From positions 1 to 40,077 of the forward strand of contig CAJCBL010000004.1 in NCBI GenBank assembly GCA_903960515.1: a stretch of DNA of 40,077 nucleotides, read 5' to 3'. Below, piece after piece: positions 21,927 through 40,010 of the stretch; the stretch's first letter is position 1, and each line of letters begins with the position of its first letter. The notes beneath the pieces were generated by a model. It saw nothing but the letters and a program-made list of their open reading frames with translations, did not search any database and was not told the DNA's origin. Position numbers and translations under genes: made by a program. The DNA comes from an uncultured Verrucomicrobiota bacterium (GTDB lineage Bacteria > Verrucomicrobiota > Verrucomicrobiia > Opitutales > Opitutaceae).

Positions 21927-24900
21927 AATGGATCTCACTGGGTTCTGGCCCACGGTGGAGAACTGTGAGAACTGCCTCTTCACCGAGGCGGAGGTTGCCG
22001 ATGACGCCGTTTTCTTGGCGGTGCATCAGCCGATGCGGATTCTCTACAAGCTCCATAACGTAAACGCGCCAGGTGAAATCCGCGATGAGCATGAAGTGCT
22101 GAAGGCCTTCCTCGCCGCCAATCCGGCGAGTGCCACACTCGTTCTCCCAGTCATCGGAGGGTCGGGTGTCGGCAAATCCCATTTGATCCGTTGGCTTCAC
22201 GCAAACCTTCGTTTGCGGAGCGACCATGCCAAGCGCCATGTAGTTCGGATCCCGAAGAGCACCAGCCTGCGCGGTGTCCTCGACCTGATCCTGAATGATT
22301 TACCGGGGAGGGATTACAGCGCGTTACGCCAGAAATTTGCTGAGGCGCAGTTGCCTCCTTCGCTGTTGGAAGCTACCCGGCGCCTGCAGGCGAGTTTGCT
22401 GGTGTCGCTCGAACTTGCCGGAAAGGAAGTCCAAGAGCGGCGGCGCGAAAAGCGGCCGGAAAAAGACGACGACTTGCGCTCGGCGCACTGCTCCGAAAAA
22501 GGGTTGATCGCACTGCTGCAAGATCCGCAACTAGGGGCGCACTTCGCCGCCCAGGAGGGAAAGAACAAGGGTGTGCTCACCCGCATTGCAGACCGCTGTC
22601 TCAACGGCAGTAAGGAAAGCGATCAGGGGCCGCAGAACCAGTTTTTCGAATCGGACATCACTTCGGTTCTGTTGGAAACCAATACCGCGACGGTTACGCG
22701 GGCCTATCTGGCGATTCTCAAGCAACCGAAGCATTTAAAGGCGGCCGTTGGCTTCCTTAACGAAGTGGTCGACCGGGCCGTCGCCCAACTGGTCGATTTT
22801 CGCGGGGTATCCCTCTCGGAACTGTTCGTAGAGATTCGACGCAAACTCTTCGAGGACAACCGGGAGTTGGTCCTCCTCGTCGAGGACTTTGCGGTGCTCG
22901 CGGGCATACAGGAGCATTTGCTGGCCGCCATGGTTAAAGAGGGCATACGTGACGGGAAGCAGGAGCTTTGCACGATGCGGACTGCCTTGGCCGTAACGGA
23001 AGGACGGTTGCCGGAAAGCGTCATGACCCGTGCAAAGGCCACGTGGGAGATCGAACAGAAGCCGTTTCAAAACGAAACCGAAGCGGTCAATTGCTTTACT
23101 GATTTCGTTGGCGGCTATCTTAACGCCGCCCGCTGGGGGGCGGACAAGTTGCTCAAGGCATACAACGATGCTGGAGCCGACGAAAAGAGGAAGGCGGAAT
23201 GGATCCCGAATTTCTACGACGAGAACAATGCGCAGCTTTCAGAGGAAAATCGCAAGGTTCTCGAATCATTCGGGAAATCCCAGCGCGGCGACTGGTTGCT
23301 TTTCCCCTTCAATCGGGACGCAGTCCAGCAACTGGCCCGCAAGTTTTTACGCTCCGGCGACGCATTCAAGTACGAACCGCGGTTGCTCATCAACCAAATC
23401 CTCCGTGAGACACTGATGCCCTACCGGGATTCCTTCAGCCGGGGCGATTTTCCTGCCGCCGGTCTTTACCAATTTGCCGAAAACCAACTGGCGGTGGATG
23501 TGGGACGTGAGATCAAGGCCAAGGCCGGTTCGGCCGCTGCGCGCGTGGCGGTCGTCGTCCATTTCTGGGGTGGCGATCCGCGCAATTTAGGACAGGCCGC
23601 CGCTATTCCACCGCAGATCCTTCGGGCCTTCGGTCTCCCGGCGATCAATTGGGATGCCAAAGCCGAGCGCCGTCGGCCCGACACCTCGCCAACTCCGGCG
23701 CCCCAGCGTCCCAAGGAAGAACCCGAAGGAGATCCCGAAGGTCCTTGGCGTAAAACGCTCGATGAATGGCGCAGCACCGGTCGCATTGGCCAGAGTCACG
23801 CCGGCAAATTGCGCGAGTACCTAGACGACGCGATTCAGGAATGGCTCGATTGGGAAGCGCTGATGCTTCGCCCCGTCACCGTTCGTAACAAACGACTTTA
23901 TATCCCGGGAGCGCAACAATCCAATCCGGAACAGGGCGATGCGTTGGCGGTGGTCGCCACCGAAGCAGACCTGGAGGATCCCGAGCGGTCACTGCACTTC
24001 TTCACCGCGATGCGAGCTGTCGTCCGTTACCACATTCAGAAGGGTTGGGCTTACCCAGGTGGCGAACTCGACGCGGTAATCTACGCCAACCACATCGAGC
24101 ACTTGGCGACACAGGCGGCGGCATATTACCGGAACAACGGTAACGAATTGCGGCCGGAAGCTATCGTTCCTCTTTCTCAAGCATTGTTGCTGGGCGCACG
24201 TGTACTCAATTTGCCCGGCGGTTCGGCCAACACTGACGTGGAAAACATCGCGGCTATGTTTGCGCCCGTGGAGAAATTCCAGCCCAGCACCTTGGGCGAT
24301 GACTGGGCCGGTCTCTTGGCTTCAGCCAACCAAACCCGAACCGACCTACAGACACTACTGTTGAAGCTAGTGGGGGCTCGTCAGGGCGAGGGCCGCAACT
24401 GCCAAGCTGTCAATGGAGCCAAACTGACCGCGGCCATTGTCCAATTGCGCAAATCCGATTGGCAATTCGCCGAGGGCGTCGACCTGAAGCTGTTTCGTGA
24501 TCAGAGCCCGTCCATCACCGAGCACCTGCGGGAACTCAAGAAGATCAAGTCACTTGCTGAGCAACGAAAGCGCTGGCTGCACGATTGGCGCGAATTGGTG
24601 ACCGGTGCGTTCGGAGAGAACTTCGATCCCATCCAAGTGGGTGAACAGCTTCGGGAGATCATCAAAGCTGCGAACGATGAGGGCGTTTTCCGTCCGAAAG
24701 AACCGAGTCATGATCTCCTGCGCACCCGTCTTCGCGATATGGGGCCGATCAAGGAAAACCTTCTGTTGGCCGGAAAAGCGACCGAGGCAGATGCTAGTCT
24801 CGGTGTCGTTCTGTCATCCGTCGCGCAATCCGATGAGAAGACAATCGAGAAGGTGCGCACGCTCATCGAGGATTGCCGGCGGTTCCTGAAGGACACCGCA

Positions 24901-25023
24901 AGCGAAGTGAACGGTCGCTTGGAGGATACACCCGCCAGTCTGGATGATGTCTCCGACAAGATCGACGGCCTCTTCAAGGACTACGATGACTTGCTCAGCA
25001 AAGCGGAGGAGGAGTCCAAATGA
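21919..25023 (+). CDS. dpdH: DpdH, large P-loop ATPase
   Basis: A 1034-residue ATPase. Walker A is GGSGVGKS (residues 80-87) and a Walker B-like strand is LVLLVEDFA (317-325). The rest is mostly helical, with a charged, possibly coiled-coil C terminus (residues ~880-1034) and a proline-rich linker around residues 590-615. The start is ATG 21919, overlapping the end of dpdG by eight bases; ATG 21928 is an alternative. It overlaps dpdI by ATGA. The size, the N-terminal ATPase and the position between dpdG and dpdI support DpdH. Its partner is probably the adjacent DpdI or the helicases, as part of a restriction complex; this is inference. Confidence 0.8.
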   Translation: MAKMDLTGFWPTVENCENCLFTEAEVADDAVFLAVHQPMRILYKLHNVNAPGEIRDEHEVLKAFLAANPASATLVLPVIGGSGVGKSHLIRWLHANLRLRSDHAKRHVVRIPKSTSLRGVLDLILNDLPGRDYSALRQKFAEAQLPPSLLEATRRLQASLLVSLELAGKEVQERRREKRPEKDDDLRSAHCSEKGLIALLQDPQLGAHFAAQEGKNKGVLTRIADRCLNGSKESDQGPQNQFFESDITSVLLETNTATVTRAYLAILKQPKHLKAAVGFLNEVVDRAVAQLVDFRGVSLSELFVEIRRKLFEDNRELVLLVEDFAVLAGIQEHLLAAMVKEGIRDGKQELCTMRTALAVTEGRLPESVMTRAKATWEIEQKPFQNETEAVNCFTDFVGGYLNAARWGADKLLKAYNDAGADEKRKAEWIPNFYDENNAQLSEENRKVLESFGKSQRGDWLLFPFNRDAVQQLARKFLRSGDAFKYEPRLLINQILRETLMPYRDSFSRGDFPAAGLYQFAENQLAVDVGREIKAKAGSAAARVAVVVHFWGGDPRNLGQAAAIPPQILRAFGLPAINWDAKAERRRPDTSPTPAPQRPKEEPEGDPEGPWRKTLDEWRSTGRIGQSHAGKLREYLDDAIQEWLDWEALMLRPVTVRNKRLYIPGAQQSNPEQGDALAVVATEADLEDPERSLHFFTAMRAVVRYHIQKGWAYPGGELDAVIYANHIEHLATQAAAYYRNNGNELRPEAIVPLSQALLLGARVLNLPGGSANTDVENIAAMFAPVEKFQPSTLGDDWAGLLASANQTRTDLQTLLLKLVGARQGEGRNCQAVNGAKLTAAIVQLRKSDWQFAEGVDLKLFRDQSPSITEHLRELKKIKSLAEQRKRWLHDWRELVTGAFGENFDPIQVGEQLREIIKAANDEGVFRPKEPSHDLLRTRLRDMGPIKENLLLAGKATEADASLGVVLSSVAQSDEKTIEKVRTLIEDCRRFLKDTASEVNGRLEDTPASLDDVSDKIDGLFKDYDDLLSKAEEESK

Positions 25024-25757
25024 GCACTCCGAAATCTACTTTCCTGGCCCAGGCTACCGACCTTCAGGTCAAGATCGTTAAGATCGGATCTGCGGAGAAG
25101 AATAAGGAGTTGCTGAGTCATTTCAAAGGAGTGCATGAGGCGTTGGAGCAGCACGTGGCAAATGCGAAGAATCTGTTCGGCACCGGAAAACTTCTCCAGG
25201 ACCATGACTTGGTCCCGAAGGATTTTCTGCCACGGGGCAAGGTTGCCAGCGTAAGAAGGAAGATTGGAACCCTCCGCAAGCGCCTGAAGGAAAATCGCAG
25301 CGAGTTGATGACCCAAAATACCTGGGCCAGTTGTGAGAAGGAGGCCGGCGAAGTGGGCGACATCCTGAATACCAAACTCGGGGCGATCTGGGCCCAATAC
25401 ATTCGTGAACGGACCGAGAAAGCCGAACCGTTTGCACCCTTCCGCCAGATGGAAAGTTGTGCCGAGGTTCTCGGTGAGGTCGAGCGCGTCGCCCAGGAGC
25501 TTAATCAAGCGCTGGCAGACTTGCCGCGTTCGGAAGCGGATTTCGCCAAGGTCAAAAAAGCGGAAGCTAGGATCAGCAGCCTGATCGCCAAGCTTGATCT
25601 CGGTGACGTACCTAAACCCGTCGAACAATTTCTTAAACGGGCCAGCCAGTCCGGCGTGTCTCTGTCCGAACTTTCCGAAGACGTGCTCGAATGGCTTAAG
25701 AAGAAGAAGTTGACCGCCAACTTGCGTGTCAGCACGGCGACGCGTCCCCGCCCTTAA
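25020..25757 (+). CDS. dpdI: DpdI
   Basis: A 245-residue, strongly charged, helix-rich protein with no enzymatic motif. Stretches such as VASVRRKIGTLRKRLKENRS and KVKKAEARISSLIAKLD are likely coiled coil. The assignment as DpdI rests on its place after dpdH (ATGA overlap) and before dpdJ (one-base gap). It could bridge the DpdH ATPase and the DpdJ helicase. In S. Montevideo, dpdI is linked to the restriction-like phenotype. Identity as DpdI is likely, but I recognise it by context more than by sequence. Confidence 0.7.
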   Translation: MSTPKSTFLAQATDLQVKIVKIGSAEKNKELLSHFKGVHEALEQHVANAKNLFGTGKLLQDHDLVPKDFLPRGKVASVRRKIGTLRKRLKENRSELMTQNTWASCEKEAGEVGDILNTKLGAIWAQYIRERTEKAEPFAPFRQMESCAEVLGEVERVAQELNQALADLPRSEADFAKVKKAEARISSLIAKLDLGDVPKPVEQFLKRASQSGVSLSELSEDVLEWLKKKKLTANLRVSTATRPRP

Positions 25758-25758
25758 G

Positions 25759-28700
25759 ATGAGCAACCTGGTGGTCGATTTTCTCGGGCGAATCGAGCGA
25801 CAGGAAGCGGCCTTGCTTTCATGGGGTCTGGTGGACGGCGCGCTGGCCGAGAACGAATTGAGTCAGTTGGCGGACGACTTCCTGAGCGAGAACGACGACG
25901 ATAACGAGTTCTCCAGTCCATATCTTTTGCTCGAAGCGATGGTCAGCCGAGGATTGCTCTTCCGTTGGGACGAAGGCGGCAGCTACCGCTACCGGAGTCG
26001 TATGGCGGAGACGCTTCGATTGCTGGCGCGTCTCCGCCAGATGTTCCCACGGCACATGCGTCGCCCCGGTGACTGGGCATTGAGTCCAACCCTGGTCGCT
26101 GATTTCCGCTTTGTTCTTCGCCCTCGCGAGTACCCAAACCGCAATCTTCCTGCTGCCGCATGCGTTGACCGCTGGATCGCGGAGGGCATTCGTTTGTCGC
26201 CCCTGCAGCGTTCCGCCTTGAGCGCCATGCTCGGCCTCGGCAATAACCCGAATCCGCTCGCTGGGTTTCAGGACCGTGCAGCGGTTCGCATCCTAAGCGA
26301 GGTCGGTACCGGTCGAGCCACCGGTACGATGATCTGCGCCGGCACAGGTAGCGGCAAAACGCTCGCATTCTATACTCCCGCTCTGACTCATCTCGTGGGA
26401 ACCGTCGAACGCGACCCGGCCCACTTCGTCCGGGCGATTGCCCTCTATCCCCGCAATGCGCTTTTGATGGATCAATTCACGGAGGTCTTTCGCCAAACCA
26501 AGCGATTGAAGCCCGTCTTGGCGGCAGCGGGCCGCCGTCCCATTTGCGTCGCAGCCTATTTCGGTCCGACACCACGGCGCGCGACGGAAGTGGAGAATCC
26601 CGGCAAACGGGAATGGGCCCAGCATACCGAGGGCAGGGTATGTCCTTTTTTGGTTTGTCCCGAACGCGACTGCGGCGGGGCCATGATTTGGCGCAATGAT
26701 GACCGGGCCCAGAACCGGGAGCGTCTCGTTTGTGAATCCTGTTCGGTGTCGATTGAAGCGGAGGATATCATTCTCACCCGCGACCGCATGCTTCGTACTC
26801 CGCCTGATGTAATCTTCACCACAACGGAGATGATGAATCAGCGGATCACCGATTCGCGTTCCTATCACTTGTTCGGCATTGGCACCCCGATTAATCGCAA
26901 GCCATCACTTGTGTTGCTGGATGAAGCGCACACCTACCGGGGAGTATCTGGCGCCCAAGCCGCCTACTTGCTGCGACGCTGGCGATATTTCAGCCACGCG
27001 AAATGCCACTACGCGGGGCTGTCGGCGACGTTGATGGAAGCCGCATCGTTCTTTGCGCAACTGAGCGGGTTGGTTGCGGACGACGTGGAAGAGATTTCTC
27101 CGGAAACCGCGGAGATGATCAAGGAGGGCATGGAATACATGGTGGCGCTTCGGGGAGATCCCGTCTCAGGCGCTAGCCTGCTTTCCACGACGATCCAAAC
27201 TGCGATGCTCCTGCGGCGCGTCCTCGACCTGAACTCCTCCCAGCCTTCTGCCGGGATATTCGGGCGCAAAGTCTTCCTCTTCACCGATGATCTCGACGTG
27301 AAAAACCGCATGTATTTCACGTTGCTCGATGCGGAAGGCCAGGACGCCTACGGCCGTCCGGACCCAGCAAAAGCCGGTGGCTCGCTCGCGAATCTGCGTG
27401 CCACCACTTGGCCCGAGGATGATCGGCGCTTCGCCTTCGGCCAATCTTGGCGGTTAGCGGAGGACATCGGCCATGCCCTGCGGCCACAGAACTATATCCG
27501 CCTTGGCCGGGTGAGTTCGCAGGACGAAGGAGTGGATATTGAAGCAGAGGTGATCGTGGCGACCGCCTCGCTCGAGGTGGGCTTTAATGACCCCGCCGTC
27601 GGTGCGGTTCTCCAACACAAGGCTCCGCGCGATCCCGCTGCTTTCCTCCAGCGCAAGGGTCGCGCCGGCCGTCAGCGCGAGATGCGCCCGTGGACGGCTA
27701 TTGTTCTTTCTGACTTCGGACGGGATCGGCTGGCGTACCAGGCCTACGATCTTCTGTTCGACCCCGAACTGCGGCCGGGCGATTTGCCCCTGGGGAACCG
27801 GCACGTGCTCAAAATGCAGGCGGCGGGGGCCACCATGGATTGGATGGCGAACCAGTTGCGGTCACAAGGCGGGCATGTGTGGCGTGACGCAAGCTCGCCG
27901 ACTGGCTCGGGCACTGAAGCGTGGAGGGCAGCAAAACTTGCCCGCCAAAATGCGGCCGCCGCTATCATAGAGCGAGTCCTGCAGGGCAACGATGACCTGG
28001 ACAGCTTGTCGGACTGGTTGCGCCGCGCTCTGGGCCTCAGGACGGCCGCCGAGGTTCAACCTCTGTTGTGGGAGTCTCCCCGGGCTTTGATGACGGAAGT
28101 GTTGCCGACGTGGCTCCGTCGGTTGCGCACTCAGTGGCAGCGTGGTGCCGAAGTGGGGCAGGAATATCACTTGGGCAATCATCCCCTCCCTGAGTTCGTG
28201 CCGGGCACGCTTTTCAACGAACTCAATCTGCCGGAAGTGATGATCATGGCCTCACCCCGGCCTGGTCGTCCGGAAGACGAGTATCCCATGGCAATTTCCG
28301 CCGCTCTACGGGAATTCGCCCCGGGCCGCATCTCCCGCCGATTCGGCATCACTCATGGCATGTCCCGTCATTGGCTCCCCGTGGATCTCGCAGCCAACGG
28401 GGTACAGACGATTGATATCAACTCATTCTGCGCCGAATCGGAGCGAGATGATCTCGGACTGATGACGGTGCCCGCCACCGGCCAGTCAGTTCGCGTCATT
28501 CGCCCTTTCGTGATGCATGTCCGGTCTGATGCGCCGCGCGACCGAGTGAAGGATTCCTCTAACGCGTTTCTCGACTGGCAGAGTCGTTTTTTCCCACCCG
28601 ATGACCCGACCGCCGGCATGCGCTTTGATCTCCCGGTGGCGTCGCCATTGAGCGAAGTGGTCGACGAGATTCGCTTCTTCACCCATCGTCACTATCAACC

Positions 28701-30879
28701 GATCACCGTGTGGCGTTTCGCCGCCGGCGCCCACGCCACCATCAATTCTTCCGGCGGTGCAACGCTGGATCTGGCAAGCCGCTTTGTGTTGCGCGCCGGT
28801 GACCAAACTGAATCGGCGGCTCTCGGATTCTGTTTCGAGGTGGATGGAATTCGCATTCGGTTGCGCATTCCTTCCAATTGGAAACTCGGCGGCGACAGTC
28901 AATTTTCTGGTAAACTCCCCGCTTTGCGGGTTGCACGTTTCCGCTGGCGGTTGCTCAACGAACCTCGCTTTGACGGCCAACTCAATCACTTCGAGCGTAA
29001 CTGGCTCGGCGAAATCGCGGTCTCGGCAATCAGCGCCATTGCGGTTCGCGACCAATGGGATCTGCCGGCCGCTTGGGCGGCCATTCGTACCGGTAGCAGC
29101 AACCTGAATCTCTCCACAGTGCTGGACGTCATGTTCCAGACGTTGCCGACCGAAGAGGACGACCCCACCGCCCGAGTTGAACAGGCTCGGCTTCAGGAAT
29201 TGCGGCTGATGATCTCCAACGCCGCGCTCCTGGCGATCCTCGATGATTTGGTACCCGTCTTGTGGAATGCCCCCGATCCCTCCTGGGAACTGTGGTTGCG
29301 GGAAAGATATTCGGCGACCTTTGCGGCCGCATTTCGCGAAGCGGTGCAGCAAAGCTGCCCGGAGGTCGACGCGGGAGATTTGCTGATCGACCTCCAGACT
29401 GACGCGAATGACTTCACCTACGTCTGGGTGACGGAAGATGCGCCCGGTGGGGGCGGTATCATCGAGCGATTGTTCCCCACGCTTGCGGAGGCGCCTCGAC
29501 GTTTCCAGGACCTCGTGCACGCGGCCCTCGAGGAATCGGACTACGAGATTACCGACTCCGAACTCCAGCGGATCCTCCGTCTGGCCGCGAACGAGCCATC
29601 GTTGGCCCAAATGATGCGGGTCATCCGAGACGCTCCGAGTTTGGCTGAGCTTACGACTCAATTCCAAGCCTTCCGGGCAACGTTGAACGAACGGGGCATT
29701 CGCACCACGCATGGAGTGCTGGCCGGGTTGGCTGCTCGCGTTTTGCGACCGGGCAGCAACGACCAGACTGACCGCATCGCGCTCGGTCTCGCTGATCGCT
29801 GGACGCGGGAAGAGTCTCGCTTGGGACTCGAGATCGATCAGCGCCCGTTGGTCTACGCCATGAGTCACTCCGATGAACTGGATTCGGCGCTGAACAACGG
29901 CACCTTGCCAATCGGCCCCGACCAGGATCGCCGGATCTGGCGATTCAATGCCCTTTCCAGTATTGCCTGGGCACGTGGTTCGCATGCCCGCAACCAAGGT
30001 TTGGGGTTGTGGAGTCCTTATTCGTCGTCGCCGCTGCCCGAGCGATGGCTGCTGCTTGATTTGTTGGGAGCAAGAGAGCCAAGCGTTCAGTTCGGTGCTC
30101 CTGATTGGCGACGGCAGTGTGAGAACCTCCTTATTGAGAACGGCCGGGTGGCAGTAGTGGCTGATCGAGGTGATCTGGCCGCCCTGCGTCCCGCGTTGGT
30201 TGGATTGCTGGTCAACGCCCTCGATCTCGGATCACTGCTGGTGTATCCTCGACTGCGTGGCATCGAGCGGACTGCAACCGGCCTTGCTGTGTTACTTGAA
30301 CTCGTGACCGCAGGGCAGGTTAGTCCCGACGACGAGCCCGTGCCTGCATCGACGGCCCGGTTGATCGTGAAAACCGCCAAGGGGGAGCGGGATGAAGTCC
30401 GCGATCTTCTGGAGAGCTTGGTCGCCGTCGAGTTGCTGGCCCCGGGCGATGAACTGTGGCTTGTCTCCCCCTGGGTTTCCGATTTGGCGCTCTTGGACAA
30501 TCGGTCCGGCGGTTACGATGGTCTCGAACCGGTCTGGCCGAAGCGTCATCTATCGCTGGCGGAACTGATCGTCTTCGCGCTGCGCCGCAATCCGGCGCTT
30601 CGGGTTAAAGTCGTAACACGTCCCGTTGAGCACAACCAACGATTCTGCTCCCGACTCCGCAATCTCGCCGACTTGGAAGGTTGCTCGGACCGACTCGTGA
30701 TCGATAGCACCCGCGAAGAACTCCATACGAAAGGGCTCATCGCTACCACGTTTGCGCTGAACGGCTCGATGAACTTCACTCGTAGCGGTGTGGAGGTGCT
30801 CGAAGAAACGGTCCAACTGGAAACCGAATCCTCCCGGATCGGGCAGTTCCGGATTAACATGCACGGGCATTATCCATGA
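25759..30879 (+). CDS. dpdJ: DpdJ helicase fused to a C-terminal PLD (DpdK-like) domain
   Basis: A 1706-residue protein. The N-terminal part is a DEAH superfamily 2 helicase: Walker A GTGSGKT (195-201), a four- or five-cysteine insert (C295, C300, C305, C325, C328) likely to bind zinc, DEAH (388-391), GLSATLMEA, and the arginine-finger motif KGRAGRQRE around residue 633. A long middle part (about 700-1450) has no motif I can name. The last ~250 residues look like a phospholipase D-type nuclease unit: ELWLVSPWVSDLALLDN, then HTKGLIATTFALNGSMN with His1656, Lys1658 and Asn1672; the usual Asp of HxKxxxxD is Thr. In S. Montevideo, dpdJ and the PLD gene dpdK are separate. The ATG is one base after dpdI, and the 3' end overlaps dpdD by ATGA. 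Confidence 0.82.
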   Translation: MSNLVVDFLGRIERQEAALLSWGLVDGALAENELSQLADDFLSENDDDNEFSSPYLLLEAMVSRGLLFRWDEGGSYRYRSRMAETLRLLARLRQMFPRHMRRPGDWALSPTLVADFRFVLRPREYPNRNLPAAACVDRWIAEGIRLSPLQRSALSAMLGLGNNPNPLAGFQDRAAVRILSEVGTGRATGTMICAGTGSGKTLAFYTPALTHLVGTVERDPAHFVRAIALYPRNALLMDQFTEVFRQTKRLKPVLAAAGRRPICVAAYFGPTPRRATEVENPGKREWAQHTEGRVCPFLVCPERDCGGAMIWRNDDRAQNRERLVCESCSVSIEAEDIILTRDRMLRTPPDVIFTTTEMMNQRITDSRSYHLFGIGTPINRKPSLVLLDEAHTYRGVSGAQAAYLLRRWRYFSHAKCHYAGLSATLMEAASFFAQLSGLVADDVEEISPETAEMIKEGMEYMVALRGDPVSGASLLSTTIQTAMLLRRVLDLNSSQPSAGIFGRKVFLFTDDLDVKNRMYFTLLDAEGQDAYGRPDPAKAGGSLANLRATTWPEDDRRFAFGQSWRLAEDIGHALRPQNYIRLGRVSSQDEGVDIEAEVIVATASLEVGFNDPAVGAVLQHKAPRDPAAFLQRKGRAGRQREMRPWTAIVLSDFGRDRLAYQAYDLLFDPELRPGDLPLGNRHVLKMQAAGATMDWMANQLRSQGGHVWRDASSPTGSGTEAWRAAKLARQNAAAAIIERVLQGNDDLDSLSDWLRRALGLRTAAEVQPLLWESPRALMTEVLPTWLRRLRTQWQRGAEVGQEYHLGNHPLPEFVPGTLFNELNLPEVMIMASPRPGRPEDEYPMAISAALREFAPGRISRRFGITHGMSRHWLPVDLAANGVQTIDINSFCAESERDDLGLMTVPATGQSVRVIRPFVMHVRSDAPRDRVKDSSNAFLDWQSRFFPPDDPTAGMRFDLPVASPLSEVVDEIRFFTHRHYQPITVWRFAAGAHATINSSGGATLDLASRFVLRAGDQTESAALGFCFEVDGIRIRLRIPSNWKLGGDSQFSGKLPALRVARFRWRLLNEPRFDGQLNHFERNWLGEIAVSAISAIAVRDQWDLPAAWAAIRTGSSNLNLSTVLDVMFQTLPTEEDDPTARVEQARLQELRLMISNAALLAILDDLVPVLWNAPDPSWELWLRERYSATFAAAFREAVQQSCPEVDAGDLLIDLQTDANDFTYVWVTEDAPGGGGIIERLFPTLAEAPRRFQDLVHAALEESDYEITDSELQRILRLAANEPSLAQMMRVIRDAPSLAELTTQFQAFRATLNERGIRTTHGVLAGLAARVLRPGSNDQTDRIALGLADRWTREESRLGLEIDQRPLVYAMSHSDELDSALNNGTLPIGPDQDRRIWRFNALSSIAWARGSHARNQGLGLWSPYSSSPLPERWLLLDLLGAREPSVQFGAPDWRRQCENLLIENGRVAVVADRGDLAALRPALVGLLVNALDLGSLLVYPRLRGIERTATGLAVLLELVTAGQVSPDDEPVPASTARLIVKTAKGERDEVRDLLESLVAVELLAPGDELWLVSPWVSDLALLDNRSGGYDGLEPVWPKRHLSLAELIVFALRRNPALRVKVVTRPVEHNQRFCSRLRNLADLEGCSDRLVIDSTREELHTKGLIATTFALNGSMNFTRSGVEVLEETVQLETESSRIGQFRINMHGHYP

Positions 30880-33134
30880 ACCTTGCGCGATGGTCAGAGG
30901 AGGACTTGCAAGCACTGCGGGCGTTTTACGACGCCGGCCAGGCATTCACCTTCGCGGACATCGAGGCAGGCAGTTCGGAATTGCTCCAAGATGTACAGGA
31001 CTGGTTGGTGACCAGTCCGCCGCCCAAGCGTTTCCCGGTTGTGCTGCCGGCCTGTCCGGTGTCGGTCCGGGAACCCTGTTGGTACGCCATAGCCTTTAGT
31101 TCCAGCCAAGCAGAACAACTCCGCCGCGAATTGATCGCCTTCGTCGGGATGGCCGGAACCGACTTTACCGGTCACCGGGTTGCATCCGACCCAACTGACC
31201 GAGTTTTGCAGGCGGCCGCGAACTGGGCTGGAGGCGAGTTCGTTTTCCGGTTCAGCGTCCATCTGCCGGCTTCGCGATCGGGCGTACGCACCGCGCTAGA
31301 TCGACTCCGCCAGATTTGGCGGATGCGGCCTGATCTCGGGGCCTCCTCATTTCGCACTTCCGATGCGCTGTTGCGCGAGTTCACCGCGGCATTGGCGGCT
31401 CAGGATGCTTCGGGTTCGGAACGGTGGCTGCAGGCCATTCGGCAATCGGGCCGTCTCAGCGTTGAGAACCTCCGTTTCCTGGAGATCGAACGACTCGGCT
31501 CGCTCGGATATTGGGATCAACTGGCGCTGCATCCCCAGTTGTCGCTGCTGCTCACGATCCGGCGTCCTCGCCGGATCAATGCGTGGTTGATCGAAGCGTT
31601 TTGGCGCTCCGAATTCGTCCGCTTTCTGGATTCGAATCAGCCGAGCGCGGCGCTCGCCCATATGCGGGATAACTTCCTGAAGAAGTACGAACCGCTTTTC
31701 AGGACTCGGGCGGGTTTGAACGGACCGAATGTGGTTCTGAGCTTTCTGCTGGTAGCGGCGGTCTCGGATCCGCCCCGCCACGAGCAAATACCGCAGTTGC
31801 TGGCCGCGTTGTCCCCAGGAACCCCTGAGCGCGCATTTGCGGAACGCATCGCAGCAACGGTGACGGCGCCGGCGGGCACAACTGAGGTCACGCTCGCCGA
31901 TGTAGAGCAACTCATCGACCGGGAGGACTACGACACCGCCTGGCCCCACCTGATTCGGCTCACTCCTTCAGTCGAAGTTGTCCAAATCTGTTTCATTTGC
32001 GCGACTGAACTTAACACGCCGGAAGCCGCTCGAACTGCCCTCGGAATCTTCGGTTCACTTTCGGCCGCGGATCAGGCCCGTATCCTTCGCCAGCGCCGCT
32101 ATCTGAATCAGCGCGATGACTTGGTGAATGCCAGCGCCGCTGCTAACCTGGTCGGTAGTTGGGAGCAATGGTTGGACAAGCTGCAGTCTGATCCTGCTTG
32201 GAGTCAGGCGGCGGAAATCGCTCGTGCCGGCGCCACCGATTGGTCGTGGGACGATTTTCAACACGACCCCGCCCGCATTATCCGTCTCGCGGCCCGTTTG
32301 CAGGAGGTCGCGCCCTCCAATACCCTCACGGTACGGTTTGTCCTGCCCAGCATTGCAGCCTTTTTCCTTCGCGCAGATGAACCGACGCCCGCGTTCATGC
32401 CGCTATGGGAGTCAGTGTTGTTCATGCTGGCAGTTGATCGCCAGTTTGGCGGCGCTGATTGGGCTCTCACCCAAGCGTTGACGGCTGCCATCCTGGAAAC
32501 CGGCCCAACGGCTGCGTCCTATGCGGACATGGTAGAGGGGCTCCGTACAATTTGGGACACCCGGGGGGAGCCTGCCCGATTAGACTGGGCGCTAGATCAC
32601 CTTGATGTGCTGGCTACTTCGCCGGTGCTCGATGCTGCTGCCCGTGAGTCGTTTTTCCACAGTGTGCGGGGCACGTTTGTTCACTCCGCCCGACGTATTG
32701 CGCCGGCTCAACGCGAACTCTTCCGCCTGCTTTGCGCTGACCTTGGTCACCAGGATGATTTCGCGGCGTTGCCGGCGCCCCCGCGCGTTGCCGGCGGCGC
32801 AGCAGATGAAGGGGGTATGCCCAGCCTGAGGGACAAGATCGTTGCCATATACACGCTTACTGCATCGGCGGCAGCGCGAGCCAAGGTCCTCATTGAGCAA
32901 CAATTTCCCGGAGTAGACGTTCGCCTCAACCACGAGCACGTGGGGAGTCCTCGACTCGCAACCTTGGCCCGCGAGGCAGACTATTTTCTGGTGGTGGCGA
33001 AGAGCGCGAAACACGCAGCGACGGATTTCCTGAAGGCCAATCGGCCTGGCCGCTCGGAGTTGATCTACCCCAGCGGTCGGGGGTCATCGAGCATTGTCAG
33101 CGCACTGCTCGAGACGGTTCGGGCGGGCCAGTGA
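30876..33134 (+). CDS. dpdD: DpdD
   Basis: A 752-residue protein, last gene of the plus-strand dpd operon, starting on ATGA shared with dpdJ. Most of it is helical without recognised motifs. The C-terminal ~95 residues (from LRDKIVAIYTLTASAAARAK) look like a small Rossmann-type domain resembling DUF2325, with ADYFLVVAKSAKHAATDFL and a final GRGSSSIVSAL. I assign DpdD because the other dpd proteins are accounted for and because dpdD belongs to the restriction-linked set. The gene ends 199 bp before the convergent dpdA-dpdB fusion; I see no clear terminator in that gap. Confidence 0.7.
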   Translation: MNLARWSEEDLQALRAFYDAGQAFTFADIEAGSSELLQDVQDWLVTSPPPKRFPVVLPACPVSVREPCWYAIAFSSSQAEQLRRELIAFVGMAGTDFTGHRVASDPTDRVLQAAANWAGGEFVFRFSVHLPASRSGVRTALDRLRQIWRMRPDLGASSFRTSDALLREFTAALAAQDASGSERWLQAIRQSGRLSVENLRFLEIERLGSLGYWDQLALHPQLSLLLTIRRPRRINAWLIEAFWRSEFVRFLDSNQPSAALAHMRDNFLKKYEPLFRTRAGLNGPNVVLSFLLVAAVSDPPRHEQIPQLLAALSPGTPERAFAERIAATVTAPAGTTEVTLADVEQLIDREDYDTAWPHLIRLTPSVEVVQICFICATELNTPEAARTALGIFGSLSAADQARILRQRRYLNQRDDLVNASAAANLVGSWEQWLDKLQSDPAWSQAAEIARAGATDWSWDDFQHDPARIIRLAARLQEVAPSNTLTVRFVLPSIAAFFLRADEPTPAFMPLWESVLFMLAVDRQFGGADWALTQALTAAILETGPTAASYADMVEGLRTIWDTRGEPARLDWALDHLDVLATSPVLDAAARESFFHSVRGTFVHSARRIAPAQRELFRLLCADLGHQDDFAALPAPPRVAGGAADEGGMPSLRDKIVAIYTLTASAAARAKVLIEQQFPGVDVRLNHEHVGSPRLATLAREADYFLVVAKSAKHAATDFLKANRPGRSELIYPSGRGSSSIVSALLETVRAGQ

Positions 33135-33333: not shown

Positions 33334-35712
33334 TTAGTTTTCATCGACCGATTGTTCGGATCCGCTCCCGTCCCCTGGCCCGCCCGCGTCATCTCGCTTC
33401 GGGTCGACTCTCCCGAGATATGCGCGGATCAAGTGGTTCGTCAGGTGATCGATGTCTCGATTGGTGTTCTGCAGGCCATCCCAAGGCAGAACCACGTTTT
33501 TCCCAAAGCGCCATATGCCCGAGGTCCATGCCGTGTATGGCGCGATCCTCTCCAACTCCTGCCTGAATTCATATATGTTCCAGTCTCGCCCAGCGCGTTT
33601 GATTCGAAATGCCACCGTGTCCATAAGGAAACCTAGGCTCACGATTCCCACTCCATGAGTGAGCCGACTCTCCCGTGGAGGCAGCAACCAAGCATCCGGA
33701 AACACATCCCGAGTCGCGCTCCAAAATGCGACAAGAAGGTTGGCTCGTTTCCGATCTGATTCAGGAAATTGGCCAAGCAAACCGTTGCTTGTGCTGTTTT
33801 CGATCATCCGCAATACCGACACATCTTTAATATTCGCGGTTTCGTGGTGGATAGATGTTGTTGTCCGGATTCTTTGGAAGAATGGGGACGCGGGATCCGA
33901 CTCCAGTATCCCGAGGATGCGATAGGCCGCCTGTCTGGTCCTCAAGCGAGGCGGCACCATGTCGCCAATAGACGGGAGCAACTCGTAGACGAGGCTCTTG
34001 GGCAATGGCCGGGTGTTGTTTATCAGAACGAATAGTTGCCGTTCGTCATTTTCTCCGGCAGATTCGATAGCGGTTATTGGCACCACGATGTCGGAACGTT
34101 GCGAGCGTCGGAGAGCTGCAAACCTTTGTTGCCCATCAACCACAAACCCGGCTTTATCCACATCATCAACAGGAACCTCGAGTGTCCCGGCAGCGACAGT
34201 TGCATTATCGTTACTATCCGGCACGAAATTAAGTGGTCGGTTGAATGCGATAATCAACGCATTGGCTAGAACCGAGCCCCGCCCATCAAGATACTCACGG
34301 ATTTCCTCGATGTGATTCTCGATCTCCGGTCGTTGATAACCAACGAGATCACCATTACTGCTCCTCGATACGCGCGAGACTGTTGCGAACTTGGCAATTT
34401 CTTTGCCGTTGACTGCAAATGTGTAGATCGAGCGCCCATCGGTTTGTTTGATTCGGATGCATGGAGTTTTCATAAACCTTCTTTCTCGCACAGATTTCAG
34501 ACGTTGATAGAATGCCCAAAGATTGTGAATGCCTCGGCGTTTGTGTCGGTTTAGTCCGCGATGCAGCAGAACCTCGACACCCAACTCCCGGCAGATCGAA
34601 CACGGACAGCGTTCCCACGGTCGATCCCGCAATGTCCGCTCGTATTCCGTCCCAAATGCAGTATCCCTTCCTAATAATTCATCATAGGCACGGACTGCCT
34701 CCAGCGCATCATTGACAGACTGGGTGCCTTCCCCTACGGCGCGTATCCGATCTAACGCTTGCCGCTCGGTTACCCGAGCTTGATCTCCATCCAGCACGCC
34801 GCTCTTTATCAGCCTACCTACCGCCGCTTCAGCGAGTCCCGTCACGCGGATCGCAGTGTACGATAGCCCTTCCGGTGTGATGTAGTTTCCACTATCATTT
34901 TTGAAGGACCGCAGAATGGGCGCGGTGCTGTCAAGGGACGAAACTCCCAACGCATGAAAATCATCCAGATGATCTGTGCGATTAAAGCCGAACAGGTGTA
35001 GCTTGGCTTCAGGAGGAATCGCGGTCCGAATTTCTGTCACCAAGCGCAAAATGTCCTCGGTCCGTGAGCCAACAATCCCGCCCAGGCCGATGTATTCGTA
35101 TCCATAACTGATCAAAAGTCTTGCCGCGTCGATCGCCGATTTCCGACTCCAGCACTGAATTGCGCCAAGCGGTGTAAAGGACACCCGCTTCTCCCGACAG
35201 AGTGCGATGAACTGCTTCGCTAATGAGAGCGTGACTGCAAAGCGCGTACTTACTCCTGCTGGTCTGAGGTTTCGCCTGTCCCAGTCTTCGTTCAGTCCCG
35301 AGATTATGTGGTCGGGGGCAACCCCGATCTGCACTTTGCAGGACTCGTAAAATGCGATCAGTTCCTCCGGTTCGACAGGGGGAACTTCTTCTCGAATATA
35401 TGAAAACGCACCACAATCCCCCATGATCGGGAACTCGCTCGGATCGCCCTTGAACCCCGGCTTTGGGTACCGGATATAGTCCCGAATCCCTTCTCGTAAG
35501 ACCGCGAATTTCTGGGATTGCGAGTATCGCCCCTGCGTCGCTCCGTCTGCAAATAGCGCCCTGGAAACTAGCACCCCGTCGTAGGGCGGCGTTTCAAGCA
35601 CCTCATGGGGCAATAGATCATAACGCCGGTTCCTACCAACGTTTGGTCGGTCGGACTGGAAGTTGTAGTCCGGATCTACGCTGTCGCAGTTGTCTGCAAA
35701 GAAGAATTTCAC
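33334..35712 (-). CDS. dpdA-dpdB: DpdA-DpdB fusion: DNA transglycosylase plus DGQQR protein
   Basis: A 792-residue in-frame fusion. Residues 1-~410 are a DpdA (TGT-fold) domain that should exchange guanine in DNA for preQ0. It has GDCGAFSY with Asp99, PDH with Asp134, GAIQCW with Gln186, SLDST with the expected nucleophile Asp261, and a zinc site Cys369, Cys371, Cys374, His396. Residues 414-792 are a DpdB module with DGQQR at 526-530, similar throughout to the separate DpdB next door. The start is GTG at 35712: it overlaps the dpdB stop (TAGTG) and gives an N terminus (KFFFADN) matching the other DpdA (QFFLPES); an ATG at 35841 would lie deep within dpdB. Met414, at 34473, is preceded by AGAAAGAAGG and could be an internal start for free DpdB. 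Confidence 0.88.
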   Translation of the reverse strand: MKFFFADNCDSVDPDYNFQSDRPNVGRNRRYDLLPHEVLETPPYDGVLVSRALFADGATQGRYSQSQKFAVLREGIRDYIRYPKPGFKGDPSEFPIMGDCGAFSYIREEVPPVEPEELIAFYESCKVQIGVAPDHIISGLNEDWDRRNLRPAGVSTRFAVTLSLAKQFIALCREKRVSFTPLGAIQCWSRKSAIDAARLLISYGYEYIGLGGIVGSRTEDILRLVTEIRTAIPPEAKLHLFGFNRTDHLDDFHALGVSSLDSTAPILRSFKNDSGNYITPEGLSYTAIRVTGLAEAAVGRLIKSGVLDGDQARVTERQALDRIRAVGEGTQSVNDALEAVRAYDELLGRDTAFGTEYERTLRDRPWERCPCSICRELGVEVLLHRGLNRHKRRGIHNLWAFYQRLKSVRERRFMKTPCIRIKQTDGRSIYTFAVNGKEIAKFATVSRVSRSSNGDLVGYQRPEIENHIEEIREYLDGRGSVLANALIIAFNRPLNFVPDSNDNATVAAGTLEVPVDDVDKAGFVVDGQQRFAALRRSQRSDIVVPITAIESAGENDERQLFVLINNTRPLPKSLVYELLPSIGDMVPPRLRTRQAAYRILGILESDPASPFFQRIRTTTSIHHETANIKDVSVLRMIENSTSNGLLGQFPESDRKRANLLVAFWSATRDVFPDAWLLPPRESRLTHGVGIVSLGFLMDTVAFRIKRAGRDWNIYEFRQELERIAPYTAWTSGIWRFGKNVVLPWDGLQNTNRDIDHLTNHLIRAYLGRVDPKRDDAGGPGDGSGSEQSVDEN

Positions 35713-36833
35713 TAGGGGGGCGGGAATTGTCCGGTATATACTGCGATCAAAGCACGCGTTAGGTCGCGGATATTGGTCGGATTGTTCTGCGGTGCATTCC
35801 AGGGTATCCCGGCCAGTATCTCCCAGTTGCCTTCCGTCCACGCACAGTGAGGCTTCAACCTTTCAAGATACCGGCGGATTTCGTGCGGTGTTTCTGGATC
35901 GCTTGGGTGCAGGTTTGCCATGATTCGGTCCATCAGAACGCCCATCGATCTAATGCCTACGCCATTCATCAGACGACTCTCTGAAGGTGACCGCCCCCAC
36001 GCCTCTGGGAAACATTCCTTCACCTCAGACCAAAATAGGTTCATCACCTTGCGGATCGCATCGATATCAGTCTCTCCACTTGCGCTGTTGCGATACTGGT
36101 AAAGGCATCCGTGGGGATCGTTCATACTTTTCCGAATCACGAGCAGCAGACTGGTGTCGGTGATAACCGCCGCCTTGTTCTCCTTTAGGTCAGTGGTTTC
36201 CCGAATGAGCAGCCCTTTGAATGGCGATTCGGGGTCTTGGTTGAGGATGTCACACAAAGCCGATGGGATTCGGTTCTTTGCGAAACTCTGTGGCAGGGTT
36301 GTGTTTACGGCCGGGAGTAATTCGTTGATCAACCCGATCGGCAGTGGTTTCACTTTGTTGACTAAAAGAAACTGAGTCCTCTGAACCTGGAAGTCGTCCG
36401 TAACGAACGCCGTCACTGGAACGAGAAGCCTTTGCTTTGACGAACGGGAGAGAGCTAGAGTCCGCTGCTGGCCGTCTACGATCCATGCCGCCCTCTTTCC
36501 TCCGATAGGGGTAGGAATGGCTAGAGTCCCAGCCTGGCATCCCTCGTTTCCCACTTTCGGACCGCGACTCTGCTTGAATCGGACGTCCGATGAGAGCGCG
36601 AGCAGAATGGCATTCGGAAACAGCACCTCGCCGGAATTCAAATAGTCAGTGATTTCGGCAACGTGCTGACGGACTTCGCCGCGTTGATAGCCGAGCAACT
36701 CGCCCCCGCCGTCTTTCTTGACCCTTGAGATTTCAGCGATTCCGAGAATCTCTTCACCGGTCAAAAAGAACGAGAAAACCGGGATGTCCGGAATCTGATT
36801 GATTTTGAGCGCACGAACTTCGATAGTATTCAT
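35712..36833 (-). CDS. dpdB: DpdB (separate copy), DGQQR protein
   Basis: A 373-residue protein of the DpdB family, ParB/DndB-like with a DGQxR motif (DGQQR at residues 120-124 in WIVDGQQRTLALSR). In S. Montevideo, DpdA and DpdB together are necessary and sufficient to put preQ0 in DNA, with DpdB thought to assist through ATP-related or DNA-binding activity. The ATG overlaps the stop of the upstream gene (ATGA), and its stop overlaps the GTG of the fusion gene. Its N terminus (FFLTGEEILGIAEISRV) and QRGEVRQHVAEITDYL align with the DpdB half of the fusion, but the two are clearly divergent, so this is not a recent tandem duplicate. Confidence 0.85.
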   Translation of the reverse strand: MNTIEVRALKINQIPDIPVFSFFLTGEEILGIAEISRVKKDGGGELLGYQRGEVRQHVAEITDYLNSGEVLFPNAILLALSSDVRFKQSRGPKVGNEGCQAGTLAIPTPIGGKRAAWIVDGQQRTLALSRSSKQRLLVPVTAFVTDDFQVQRTQFLLVNKVKPLPIGLINELLPAVNTTLPQSFAKNRIPSALCDILNQDPESPFKGLLIRETTDLKENKAAVITDTSLLLVIRKSMNDPHGCLYQYRNSASGETDIDAIRKVMNLFWSEVKECFPEAWGRSPSESRLMNGVGIRSMGVLMDRIMANLHPSDPETPHEIRRYLERLKPHCAWTEGNWEILAGIPWNAPQNNPTNIRDLTRALIAVYTGQFPPP

Positions 36834-37819
36834 TTTGGGTCGAACAGTCGTCCTTGATTGGATTCAACGAAGCGCCGGAACAGCGCTCCGAATCGCTTTT
36901 GCTCACAAGAGAGCCCTTTGGAATCCCTTAGATGGCGAAGCAGTGCCGAAGCTGAGGTACCGAACGTGGAAAAGTGTGCCTGAATATAGTGCATGACCTC
37001 TTCGTCGGTCATTGGCGCGACCGGTTTCCTCACTGGATCGGGGAGCCCTTCGCCTATCCTTTTCATTACTTCGAAGACCTTTCCGTTCCCCTCCGCCAAC
37101 GCGTCGGCGTGCGCGGTGATCAGCCAGTTGGCCAGTCTTGCGTTAAGGCTCACGTTAGTTTTGTCGAGATACGGATCCACAGCCTTGAACCTGTCATTGA
37201 ACGGAAGCACTCGCGCTCGCACTACTGGCGAGATAGCCGAAAGGTTCGCAAAGACGCCGGCACTGACAATGTAGATCCGCTTCCCGGCAGCTATGAGTTC
37301 CGCCACCTCACGCTCTACAGCTCCGAAATACTCGCGTGAGAGAATCAGCACGATCACCTCCTCCCCTCCGCATCCTCCGAATCGCTCTGCAAGATTGGTC
37401 CGACCCCATGCGTTGTTGAGCAACCGCCACCATTCCGCCTGATTCTCGCGGACTGAGTTCTCTCTAGGCCACTTGAGATTCAGCATGCTGTCGGGTCCCG
37501 CGGCAAAAGACGCCGCGTAGTTCGCAATTGGCGTTCGATCGTCGATAAGCCCGTATCCAGCTGAAAGCACAAGAAGCTCAGGCGAGTCGAACTTCTCCCG
37601 CGCTGACGCTACGCAATTCAACGATTCCCGCCAATGCGACCCTAGGTAGACGTCCGATGCCGGTGCGGTAGCTTCAGAGCCTCCAAGGCTTTCGACCCAC
37701 CGTTTCACGGCAAACTTCGGATCCATGCCGTTCTGGCATCTCAAGCACCGGTCCGGCTCAGTCGGACCGCGCTTTTGATTCGTGCATGTGGTGATAATTG
37801 TCAGTTTCCGAGCAGCCAT
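36830..37819 (-). CDS. dpdC: Probable DpdC (preQ0-in-DNA to amide conversion)
   Basis: A 329-residue protein beginning KLTIITTCTNQKRG with a nearby Cys pair (CLRC), then LVLSAGYGLIDD followed by ANYAASF. This order resembles the DUF6884/YaaA-like group. A C-terminal helical part includes MTDEEVMHYIQAHFSTFG, possibly a small winged-helix unit. In S. Montevideo, dpdC is needed after DpdA/DpdB to turn deoxy-preQ0 into dADG. Here it sits between dpdA and dpdB and overlaps dpdB by ATGA, the right place for a modification gene, and no other candidate exists in the window. The DpdC assignment is therefore by context plus a loose family resemblance. A different nucleotide-processing role is possible. 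Confidence 0.62.
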   Translation of the reverse strand: MAARKLTIITTCTNQKRGPTEPDRCLRCQNGMDPKFAVKRWVESLGGSEATAPASDVYLGSHWRESLNCVASAREKFDSPELLVLSAGYGLIDDRTPIANYAASFAAGPDSMLNLKWPRENSVRENQAEWWRLLNNAWGRTNLAERFGGCGGEEVIVLILSREYFGAVEREVAELIAAGKRIYIVSAGVFANLSAISPVVRARVLPFNDRFKAVDPYLDKTNVSLNARLANWLITAHADALAEGNGKVFEVMKRIGEGLPDPVRKPVAPMTDEEVMHYIQAHFSTFGTSASALLRHLRDSKGLSCEQKRFGALFRRFVESNQGRLFDPK

Positions 37820-37846
37820 TTCTGCTAGACTGTGCAGTTTCTCGAC

Positions 37847-37864
37847 ATTTTTAAAGCTAAAAAT
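37847..37864. repeat. AT-only palindrome upstream of dpdC
   Basis: ATTTTTA-AAGC-TAAAAAT, a perfect 7-bp inverted repeat with a 4-nt loop, lies 28 nt upstream of the dpdC start in the 153-nt gap after dpdA. It could be an operator, part of a promoter or a weak terminator. The surrounding gap is unusually AT-rich for this window. Confidence 0.4.
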
Positions 37865-37972
37865 TCACCAACGTGCGTAATTACTAAAATTCCATATTTC
37901 GCGCAGCTTGCAGTTAATCCGGAAACCACGAACGCAACTGCCGACAAAACGCCACCTATCGGCCTGGCAGGC

Positions 37973-39262
37973 CTACCCCTTGCGCTGAAGTTCAAATCGC
38001 TTCTGCTTGAAAGCCTCGTAGAAAACCCAGGTGTTGTGGAAACCGCGGCGGCGGTTGCGATCATTGCCCCGGAGGATCACTACCTCTACTCCTATCTCCC
38101 GGCAGATTGCACATGGGCAAGATTCCCACGGGCGGTCTCGCAGTGTTTCCTCGAAGTCACGGTAGGCCTTTCGACTTTCCCCAAACTCGTCGTCATAGGC
38201 GACCAACGCTTTCATCGCCTCCGTGAGATCAATTTCCCGGCGGGCGTAACTACGGACCCGCGCGAGGGCCTCTTGCTCGAGTCTACTCAATCGCTCTAGC
38301 ACTTTTTGGGCGGCAATCCGCTTCAATTCTTTTTCGGCGTCATCTTCGTCGCCATTTTCTAACCACGGTTTCAGAATTTTCCGAACCTTGGGAGACCGAT
38401 GCTGCCCCCCTGCAGTCGATGGAATTCGAACTGCGGTGTAGTTCTTTGCCGGCGAGTGGTAGTTCTCCTTGTCGCTCTTGAACGCCTGAAAAATTGTCGA
38501 TGCACTGTCGCACGAAACGACGCCTGCGGCCAGATAATCATCCATCAGCGAGAGTCGTGCGACTCCAAATAGGTGGAACTGCGCAATCCTGTGCAGTCCA
38601 CCGCGCACCAACTCCGCCAACACCAACCTGATATCCTTGTCCGATGCTCGAGCTAGCCCCCCAATGGCGATGTACCTGTACCCGATCGCAGCAAGTCGCT
38701 CGACGCAGGAACGATAGGACTTCGGGCTCCATCCCTGAGCCGCTCCGATCAACTCGTACCGGTACCCGCCCCGTTGATGGATCGCCCACATTTCCTCCGC
38801 GCCAGAGATCGTGATATCCATTCGGCGCCTCGCCTCAACTGGAACCTCGCGCGCCAGAAGCGCTGATTCAGAATCGAAGTCGGGGTCAAACTCGACAATT
38901 ACGTGGTCAAGAGTCACGCCATAGTTGACTCCGATCTTGGCGTAGAATTCACAGGTATCGACCGGCGAATAGGGCGGTCGTTCCAAACCAACATACTGGA
39001 ACGCGCCTGAGTCGCTGATAACCGGTATAGATATCGGGATTGAGAGGAATTGATGAATTCCGCCAACATTCGCGATCTCGGCCAGCTTTTTTTCATCTAC
39101 GGTCGAACGACTTACAAGCACGCCATCGCAGGGTAATCCGCCAAGCAATTGATGCGCGTACACGTCGTGTCTGGTAGATTTCCCGCACCCATATCGGTCC
39201 GCAAGAAAGTCAAAATGCCGATCGACCAGGTCGTCTGACTCAGGGAGAAAGAATTGCATCAC
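37973..39262 (-). CDS. dpdA: DpdA (separate copy), DNA guanine transglycosylase
   Basis: A 429-residue TGT-family protein of the DpdA type, predicted to cleave guanine from DNA and insert preQ0. Key residues are present: SDSGAFQY with Asp84, LDH with Asp119, GAAQGW with Gln176, CDS with the expected nucleophile Asp252, and zinc ligands Cys382, Cys384, Cys387 and His409. Gene order and the short zinc-to-end tail separate it from tRNA TGT. ATG 39262 is followed by a second ATG at 39259, and a GAGAGAG stretch lies upstream. It is the first gene of the minus-strand modification operon, and a TATAAT box precedes it. It resembles the DpdA half of the fusion in layout but is strongly divergent. Confidence 0.88.
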   Translation of the reverse strand: MMQFFLPESDDLVDRHFDFLADRYGCGKSTRHDVYAHQLLGGLPCDGVLVSRSTVDEKKLAEIANVGGIHQFLSIPISIPVISDSGAFQYVGLERPPYSPVDTCEFYAKIGVNYGVTLDHVIVEFDPDFDSESALLAREVPVEARRRMDITISGAEEMWAIHQRGGYRYELIGAAQGWSPKSYRSCVERLAAIGYRYIAIGGLARASDKDIRLVLAELVRGGLHRIAQFHLFGVARLSLMDDYLAAGVVSCDSASTIFQAFKSDKENYHSPAKNYTAVRIPSTAGGQHRSPKVRKILKPWLENGDEDDAEKELKRIAAQKVLERLSRLEQEALARVRSYARREIDLTEAMKALVAYDDEFGESRKAYRDFEETLRDRPWESCPCAICREIGVEVVILRGNDRNRRRGFHNTWVFYEAFKQKRFELQRKG

Positions 39263-39735: not shown

Positions 39736-39967
39736 TGTTGCACTCGGCCGCGGTCGAACCGCGACTCGCGACTCCTTAGAAAACCTGCTCGGTCTCTATT
39801 GCCTGGTTGCCTTCGGTTCCCCGCGCCAACGGACTGCTACGTCGCTGCAATTCGGCGTGAAAATGGCTCAATGAAATCACTTGGACCACGCAATTTTTCT
39901 CGTCAGGCTTCGACAATACGTTAGTCACGCCGTAGTATTCGCGCAAGTGGACGTTTTGGTTGGTCAA

Positions 39968-40010
39968 CGACAATTAGAATTCGCCATCAGCGACAATTAG
40001 ATTCCGCCAT
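39968..40010. mobile_element. Tandem 20-bp repeats, probable insertion sequence end (IS21-like)
   Basis: CGACAATTAGAATTCGCCAT (39968-39987) is repeated as CGACAATTAGATTCCGCCAT (39991-40010), period 23, two mismatches. A 7-bp hairpin GGGGAGC-GCA-GCTCCCC follows at 40026-40042. Multiple ~20-bp terminal repeats with a TTGTCG-type core on the minus strand are typical of IS21-family ends. The transposase would lie beyond the window. The family call is from memory of such ends and is uncertain. Confidence 0.45.

Follow-up and report, generated by a model that had tools for sequence, protein, structure and literature searches.

A Second, Deeply Diverged DpdA Homolog beside a Common dpd Cassette in an Uncultured Opitutaceae Bacterium

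The modification genes of the island

We analyzed a 40077-base stretch of DNA (the window), which is one whole contig (C4; GenBank CAJCBL010000004.1) from an uncultured Verrucomicrobiota bacterium of the family Opitutaceae (GCA_903960515.1, a fragmented 5.5-Mb assembly of 379 contigs). A search for 16S sequences to place the host returned no rRNA from the genomes compared. A complete dpd modification-restriction island spans positions 12260 to 39262 of this contig; it has DpdA, DpdB, and DpdC, with dpdD-dpdK genes nearby and genes for preQ0 supply in the window. Its modification side carries two homologs of the DNA-guanine transglycosylase DpdA and two of DpdB: one stand-alone protein of each kind (DpdA1, DpdB1) and a fusion of the other two (DpdA2~DpdB2). 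Judged by gene order and phylogeny, what is new here is the addition of a single old DpdA lineage to a common cassette, not a doubled system. The modification genes are as follows:

33334-35712, minus strand: DpdA2~DpdB2 fusion, 792 aa (NCBIfam DpdA and DpdB)
about 34492-35712, minus strand: DpdA2 part of the fusion, residues 1-407
about 33430-34473, minus strand: DpdB2 part of the fusion, residues 414-761
35712-36833, minus strand: DpdB1, DGQHR/ParB-like partner (NCBIfam NF041060)
36830-37819, minus strand: DpdC (PADLOC, 4.2e-41)
37820-37972, minus strand: gap of 153 bp that separates DpdA1 from the coupled genes DpdC, DpdB1, and fusion (from coordinates and sequence)
37973-39262, minus strand: DpdA1, stand-alone DNA-guanine transglycosylase homolog, 428-429 aa (NCBIfam NF041059, PADLOC)

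DpdC, which is absent from an earlier, first-pass annotation of this DNA, is the first gene of the coupled cassette and overlaps DpdB1 by 4 bases. The fusion begins at a GTG at 35712, the homologous start, which overlaps the DpdB1 stop codon (TAGTG); the open reading frame start listed at 35841 is an in-frame GTG further upstream. For DpdA1, the ATG at 39259 is a likelier start than the GTG at 39262 directly before it, and a simple scan of the minus strand of the 37820-37972 gap found no sigma-70-like site.

Both DpdA homologs appear intact

The first-pass annotation had reported two DpdA and two DpdB domains in one operon, and all four scored above the curated NCBIfam cut-offs of 200 bits for DpdA (NF041059; DpdA1, 382.5; fusion, 425.9) and 300 bits for DpdB (NF041060; DpdB1, 412.6; fusion, 380.5). 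PADLOC agreed, with DpdA scores of 364 bits (2.3e-109) for DpdA1 and 417.5 bits for the fusion and DpdB scores of 436.8 bits for DpdB1 and 387.5 bits for the fusion. The annotation had also stated that key residues are kept. In an alignment of about 40 DpdA with the genome's own tRNA-guanine transglycosylase (TGT), both DpdA1 and DpdA2 indeed keep the TGT-type catalytic and pocket set D84/D119/Q176/G202/D252 and the zinc ligands CxCxxC...H (C382/C384/C387/H409; DpdA1 numbering throughout). Two of the kept aspartates we take to be the acid/base and the nucleophile, by the roles assigned from Zymomonas TGT. The first pocket motif, correctly quoted in the annotation, reads SDSGAFQY in DpdA1 and GDCGAFSY in DpdA2. 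All 30 reference DpdA have glycine at the first motif position, nearly all as GDCGAF; DpdA1 instead has SDSGAF, the form of ordinary TGTs (TDSGGF in this genome's tRNA TGT).

The predicted structure of DpdA1 (mean predicted local distance difference test score, 83) best matches the solved DpdA PDB 7ui4 (template modeling score, 0.82/0.85; E, 1.2e-29), far better than it matches tRNA TGTs; in the model of the fusion, the DpdA part was predicted too poorly for fold comparison. DpdA1 and DpdA2 share 36% identity over 387 columns. The 379-contig assembly has no third DpdA; besides DpdA1 and DpdA2, its sole TGT is the normal enzyme for tRNA, encoded on contig C158. The DpdA1 frame is intact over 429 codons, and its overall and third-position GC content (0.55/0.62) matches the values of its neighbors DpdC, DpdB1, and DpdA2~DpdB2 (0.54-0.56/0.57-0.62), which suggests that it is a long-resident gene. 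By these features, both DpdA1 and DpdA2 are apparently intact DNA-guanine transglycosylases.

Two DpdB flank one DpdA in a widespread cassette

The first-pass annotation had treated the genes as two matched sets, DpdA1 with DpdB1 and DpdA2 with DpdB2. That pairing is rejected, since two DpdB around a single DpdA is a general arrangement. It occurs in nine alphaproteobacterial plasmid records, and in the plasmid loci examined a DpdC-like gene precedes DpdB1-DpdA-DpdB2. The same DpdC-DpdB1-DpdA-DpdB2 order is found in one genome from the same family as the window (G275), in two others from the same class (G1043 and G1210), in a fecal phage-labeled scaffold, and in two IMG/VR contigs; Poribacterium G603 has the order B1-A-B2 at a contig edge. 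The cassette loci listed in our comparison are L009, L010, L011, L024-L028, L013, L097, L099, L023, L044, and L045. The window is laid out alike by both order and tree, with DpdC first and one DpdB of each DpdB clade flanking DpdA.

In the DpdB tree, the first-position DpdB, including DpdB1 of the window, form one clade (14 rows; support, 100/100), and DpdB2 of the window groups with Poribacterial DpdB2 (100/98). Window and Poribacterial rows also pair in the DpdB1 tree (99/97) and in the DpdA trees (97/92, 92/84). The separate DpdB clades mark an old division: DpdB1 and DpdB2 are ancient paralogs, and their joint presence in the window is not special. The recurrence of DpdB1-DpdA-DpdB2 suggests that the two paralogs of the cassette are not interchangeable and that many dpd systems use two such DpdB, unlike the one-DpdB enterobacterial model. 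The literature that we searched contained no description of the DpdB1/DpdB2 pair as such; the GATOR-GC survey gives dpdB as the dpd gene with the most additional copies (n=801; PMC11888242). Within the window's family, a dpd DpdB is present at all in only 2 of 252 species. The first-pass annotation was therefore right to find the double arrangement remarkable as far as the extra DpdA1 is concerned, though not for its double DpdB, which is widespread around a single DpdA. Because B1-A-B2 recurs with one DpdA, DpdB1 and DpdB2 are assigned to DpdA2; we infer that the resident enzyme, which serves both of them, is DpdA2 and that DpdA1 is the extra piece.

The fusion in the window unites two neighboring genes of the cassette, DpdA and DpdB2. 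It recurs in Poribacterium G634 (L086), where the junction is homologous and the DpdA part truncated, and in Poribacterium G603 (L005) the two halves lie in one frame, parted by a single TAG at the junction. The fusion is thus older than the window's lineage. The G603 TAG lies at L005:1834-1836, where G634 reads CAG, with no good start codon close after it; it could reflect a recent split, a sequencing error, or readthrough.

Ancestry and rarity of DpdA1

The nearest sequences to DpdA1 are cyanobacterial and Paenibacillus DpdA (40-42% identity), and those nearest to DpdA2 are cassette DpdA (up to 42%). The DpdA phylogeny proposed in the first-pass annotation places DpdA2 inside the cassette clade, whereas DpdA1 branches immediately outside the group that unites every cassette and enterobacterial DpdA (support for that group, 99/98 and 100/96). 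In approximately unbiased (AU) tests, a sister pairing of DpdA1 and DpdA2 was disfavored (P = 0.030), as was a grouping of both with Poribacterial DpdA (P = 0.019); placing DpdA1 with the cyanobacterial/Paenibacillus DpdC~DpdA clade was not the best tree and was not rejected (P = 0.161). The DpdA1-DpdA2 pair had not been rejected (P = 0.178) with an earlier tree that lacked relatives from the Poribacteria and from the window's class. The long branches leave the exact place of DpdA1 unsure. Fresh duplication, considered as an origin, is disfavored by the tree and AU tests; together with the 36% identity, this deep split agrees with the annotation's view that the two are not a fresh copy, and a single shallow duplication, on phylogenetic grounds, is out.

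Two full-length DpdA were found only in the window's genome among the DpdA-bearing genomes and records examined. A whole-record search with the DpdA profile matched 26 of 27 records or genomes, none with two full-length DpdA; the same held for 85 Poribacterial-phylum genomes (DpdA match in 13) and for another four genomes from the class of the window. E. coli carries DpdA in 161 of 5426 genomes, in one place each, and a search of IMG/VR returned no close relatives of DpdA1. This sample without a second DpdA is small against the thousands of public dpd islands, for which copy-number variation is reported. A distinct type of DpdA, about 570-640 aa long and extended at the N terminus, is encoded by several Poribacterial-phylum genomes (L078-L085); in the DpdA tree it sits in a deep, separate clade.

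The remainder of the island

The other genes of the island lie on the plus strand, so that the restriction genes and the modification genes (DpdA1, DpdC, DpdB1, and the fusion, on the minus strand) converge:

12260-12967, plus strand: QueC, preQ0 supply (Pfam)
12949-13416, plus strand: QueD (PTPS), preQ0 supply (Pfam)
13413-14093, plus strand: QueE-like radical SAM protein, preQ0 supply (Pfam)
14093-14962, plus strand: FolE2, preQ0 supply (Pfam)
15173-18457, plus strand: DpdE, restriction side (PADLOC)
18454-20976, plus strand: DpdF, restriction side (PADLOC)
20883-21926, plus strand: DpdG, restriction side (PADLOC)
21814-25023, plus strand: DpdH, restriction side (PADLOC)
25020-25757, plus strand: DpdI-like, restriction side (NCBIfam DpdI, below cut-off)
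25726-30879, plus strand: DpdJ~DpdK fusion, a single 1717-aa protein, restriction side (PADLOC)
30876-33134, plus strand: DpdD, restriction side (PADLOC)

Upstream of DpdA1, near the contig end, lie two adjacent 23-bp direct repeats (39964-40009) of a type found at the ends of insertion sequences; they may have caused the assembly break.

Possible roles of the second DpdA

In the characterized system, according to two accounts, DpdA puts preQ0 into DNA with the help of the ATPase DpdB, and DpdC turns dPreQ0 into dADG (PMC12839542, PMC11888242). By analogy, the core insertion machine of the island would be the DpdC-DpdB1-DpdA2-DpdB2 cassette with DpdA2 fused to DpdB2: DpdA2 and both DpdB ATPases would swap guanine in DNA for preQ0, which DpdC would then convert to dADG. 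We tentatively favor a reading in which DpdA1 is likewise an active DNA-guanine transglycosylase but has targets of its own. It would perform the same base exchange at other sites (in a different sequence context or on the other strand), sharing preQ0, DpdB, and DpdC with DpdA2, and self-DNA would then carry the marks of two enzymes. Its kept catalytic residues, best fit to 7ui4, older lineage, resident-like composition, and intact frame argue for such a second insertase. With slightly less assurance, we suggest that DpdA1 and DpdA2 may be functionally divided, whether as an obligate heteromer or as two insertases differing in sequence or strand specificity, and that one restriction module may read a two-enzyme self-mark. 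Several points weigh against a separate role for DpdA1 as a second insertase. Divergence is the one ground for giving it its own specificity; its expression may differ from that of the coupled genes, which lie 153 bp away; rate matching of DpdB against either DpdA gave no significant correlation; and the sequences searched held no DpdA1 ortholog, so that selection on DpdA1 is not measurable.

The chief rival, which we consider doubtful, is a single heteromeric enzyme made of DpdA1 and DpdA2, with catalysis by one chain and positioning of the DNA by the other, on the model of TGT dimers acting on tRNA. TGTs work as homodimers in bacteria and as a heterodimer in eukaryotes, a precedent for such an arrangement, and the murine TGT heterodimer 7ovo is among the PDB matches listed in the structure comparison of the fusion model. 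Among 60 columns conserved in the other sequences, each DpdA of the window departs at 8, five of them its own and three common to both copies, against a mean departure of 2.4%, and Poribacterial relatives of DpdA2 without a DpdA1 depart at 0 of 26 and 0 of 24 columns. This excess loss of conserved residues was considered as a sign of divided labor; under a fairer control, without close relatives as references, single-copy alphaproteobacterial DpdA depart at the same level (8-14% of columns), and the signal is weak. The catalytic residues are complete in both chains, DpdA works alone in all other loci, and DpdA1 lacks translational coupling to the cassette. The first-pass annotation had raised a heterodimer in the manner of QTRT1/QTRT2; the completeness of both active sites counts against the form with one dead subunit, and what survives of the idea is the heteromer of two active chains.

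We judge it unlikely that DpdA1 has no separate role and is redundant or transitional, a copy acquired from another dpd lineage and kept as a spare or in the course of being replaced. The repeats resembling insertion sequence ends upstream of DpdA1 and the gap separating it from the coupled genes would fit such a history, yet the frame is unbroken and no catalytic residue is lost despite deep divergence, and the composition equals that of the neighbors, all of which argues for retention under selection. Finally, an artifactual joining of two dpd loci is highly improbable: the assembly is fragmented and the window is one entire contig, but there is no second dpd cassette or further DpdA in the assembly, and composition is uniform across the modification genes. 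A separate specificity for DpdA1, a heteromer, and redundancy are not separable by sequence alone.

How DpdA picks its targets is an open question of dpd systems, and the part played by DpdB is unclear. Two deeply diverged and apparently intact DpdA beside one DpdB1/DpdB2 pair would make the roles of DpdA and DpdB genetically separable, since any site differences between single DpdA deletions would be attributable to DpdA and not to DpdB or DpdC.

Comparison with known dpd systems

The dpd systems of Salmonella Montevideo and other Enterobacteria (dpdC-dpdA-dpdB plus dpdD-K; also Enterobacter pPOL9A and the 161 of 5426 E. coli genomes) comprise the same modification and restriction families as the window, and the predicted fold of DpdA1 is that of the solved DpdA 7ui4. 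They have one DpdA and one DpdB where the window has two of each, and the window differs further in its DpdA~DpdB and DpdJ~DpdK fusions and its own preQ0 genes.

Loci of Nostoc, Picosynechococcus, Paenibacillus plasmids, and Natronococcus resemble the window in having two TGT-fold proteins per locus, a DpdC-like~DpdA fusion and a second, short TGT-like protein. The latter, at about 310-345 aa, is not a full DpdA, and the two scanned scored 70.9 and 58.2 bits against the DpdA cut-off of 200. The short genes lie at L022:15167-16114, L032:6159-7082, L020:12209-13132, and L036:11017-12051 (cyanobacteria, Paenibacillus, and a haloarchaeon), between two helicase genes in the two cyanobacteria. L020, L021, L022, L031, L032, L037, and L100 encode N-terminally extended DpdA of about 690-730 aa; the extension is weakly DpdC-like in L020, L022, and L100 (PADLOC) and in L031 and L037 (BLAST), hence a DpdC-like~DpdA fusion.

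The Poribacterial B1-A-B2 and A~B2 loci (G603, L005; G634, L086), in whose genomes no DpdA1 was found, contain the closest relatives of DpdB1 (57%), DpdB2 (48%), and DpdA2 (41-45%, counting the parts present), and the fusion junction is the same. The cassette of the alphaproteobacterial plasmids, G275, G1043, G1210, and other loci is like the window in gene order, in both DpdB orthologs, and in its gene overlaps, and DpdA2 falls in its clade. These loci encode DpdA and DpdB2 separately and lack DpdA1, whereas in the window the two are fused and accompanied by DpdA1.
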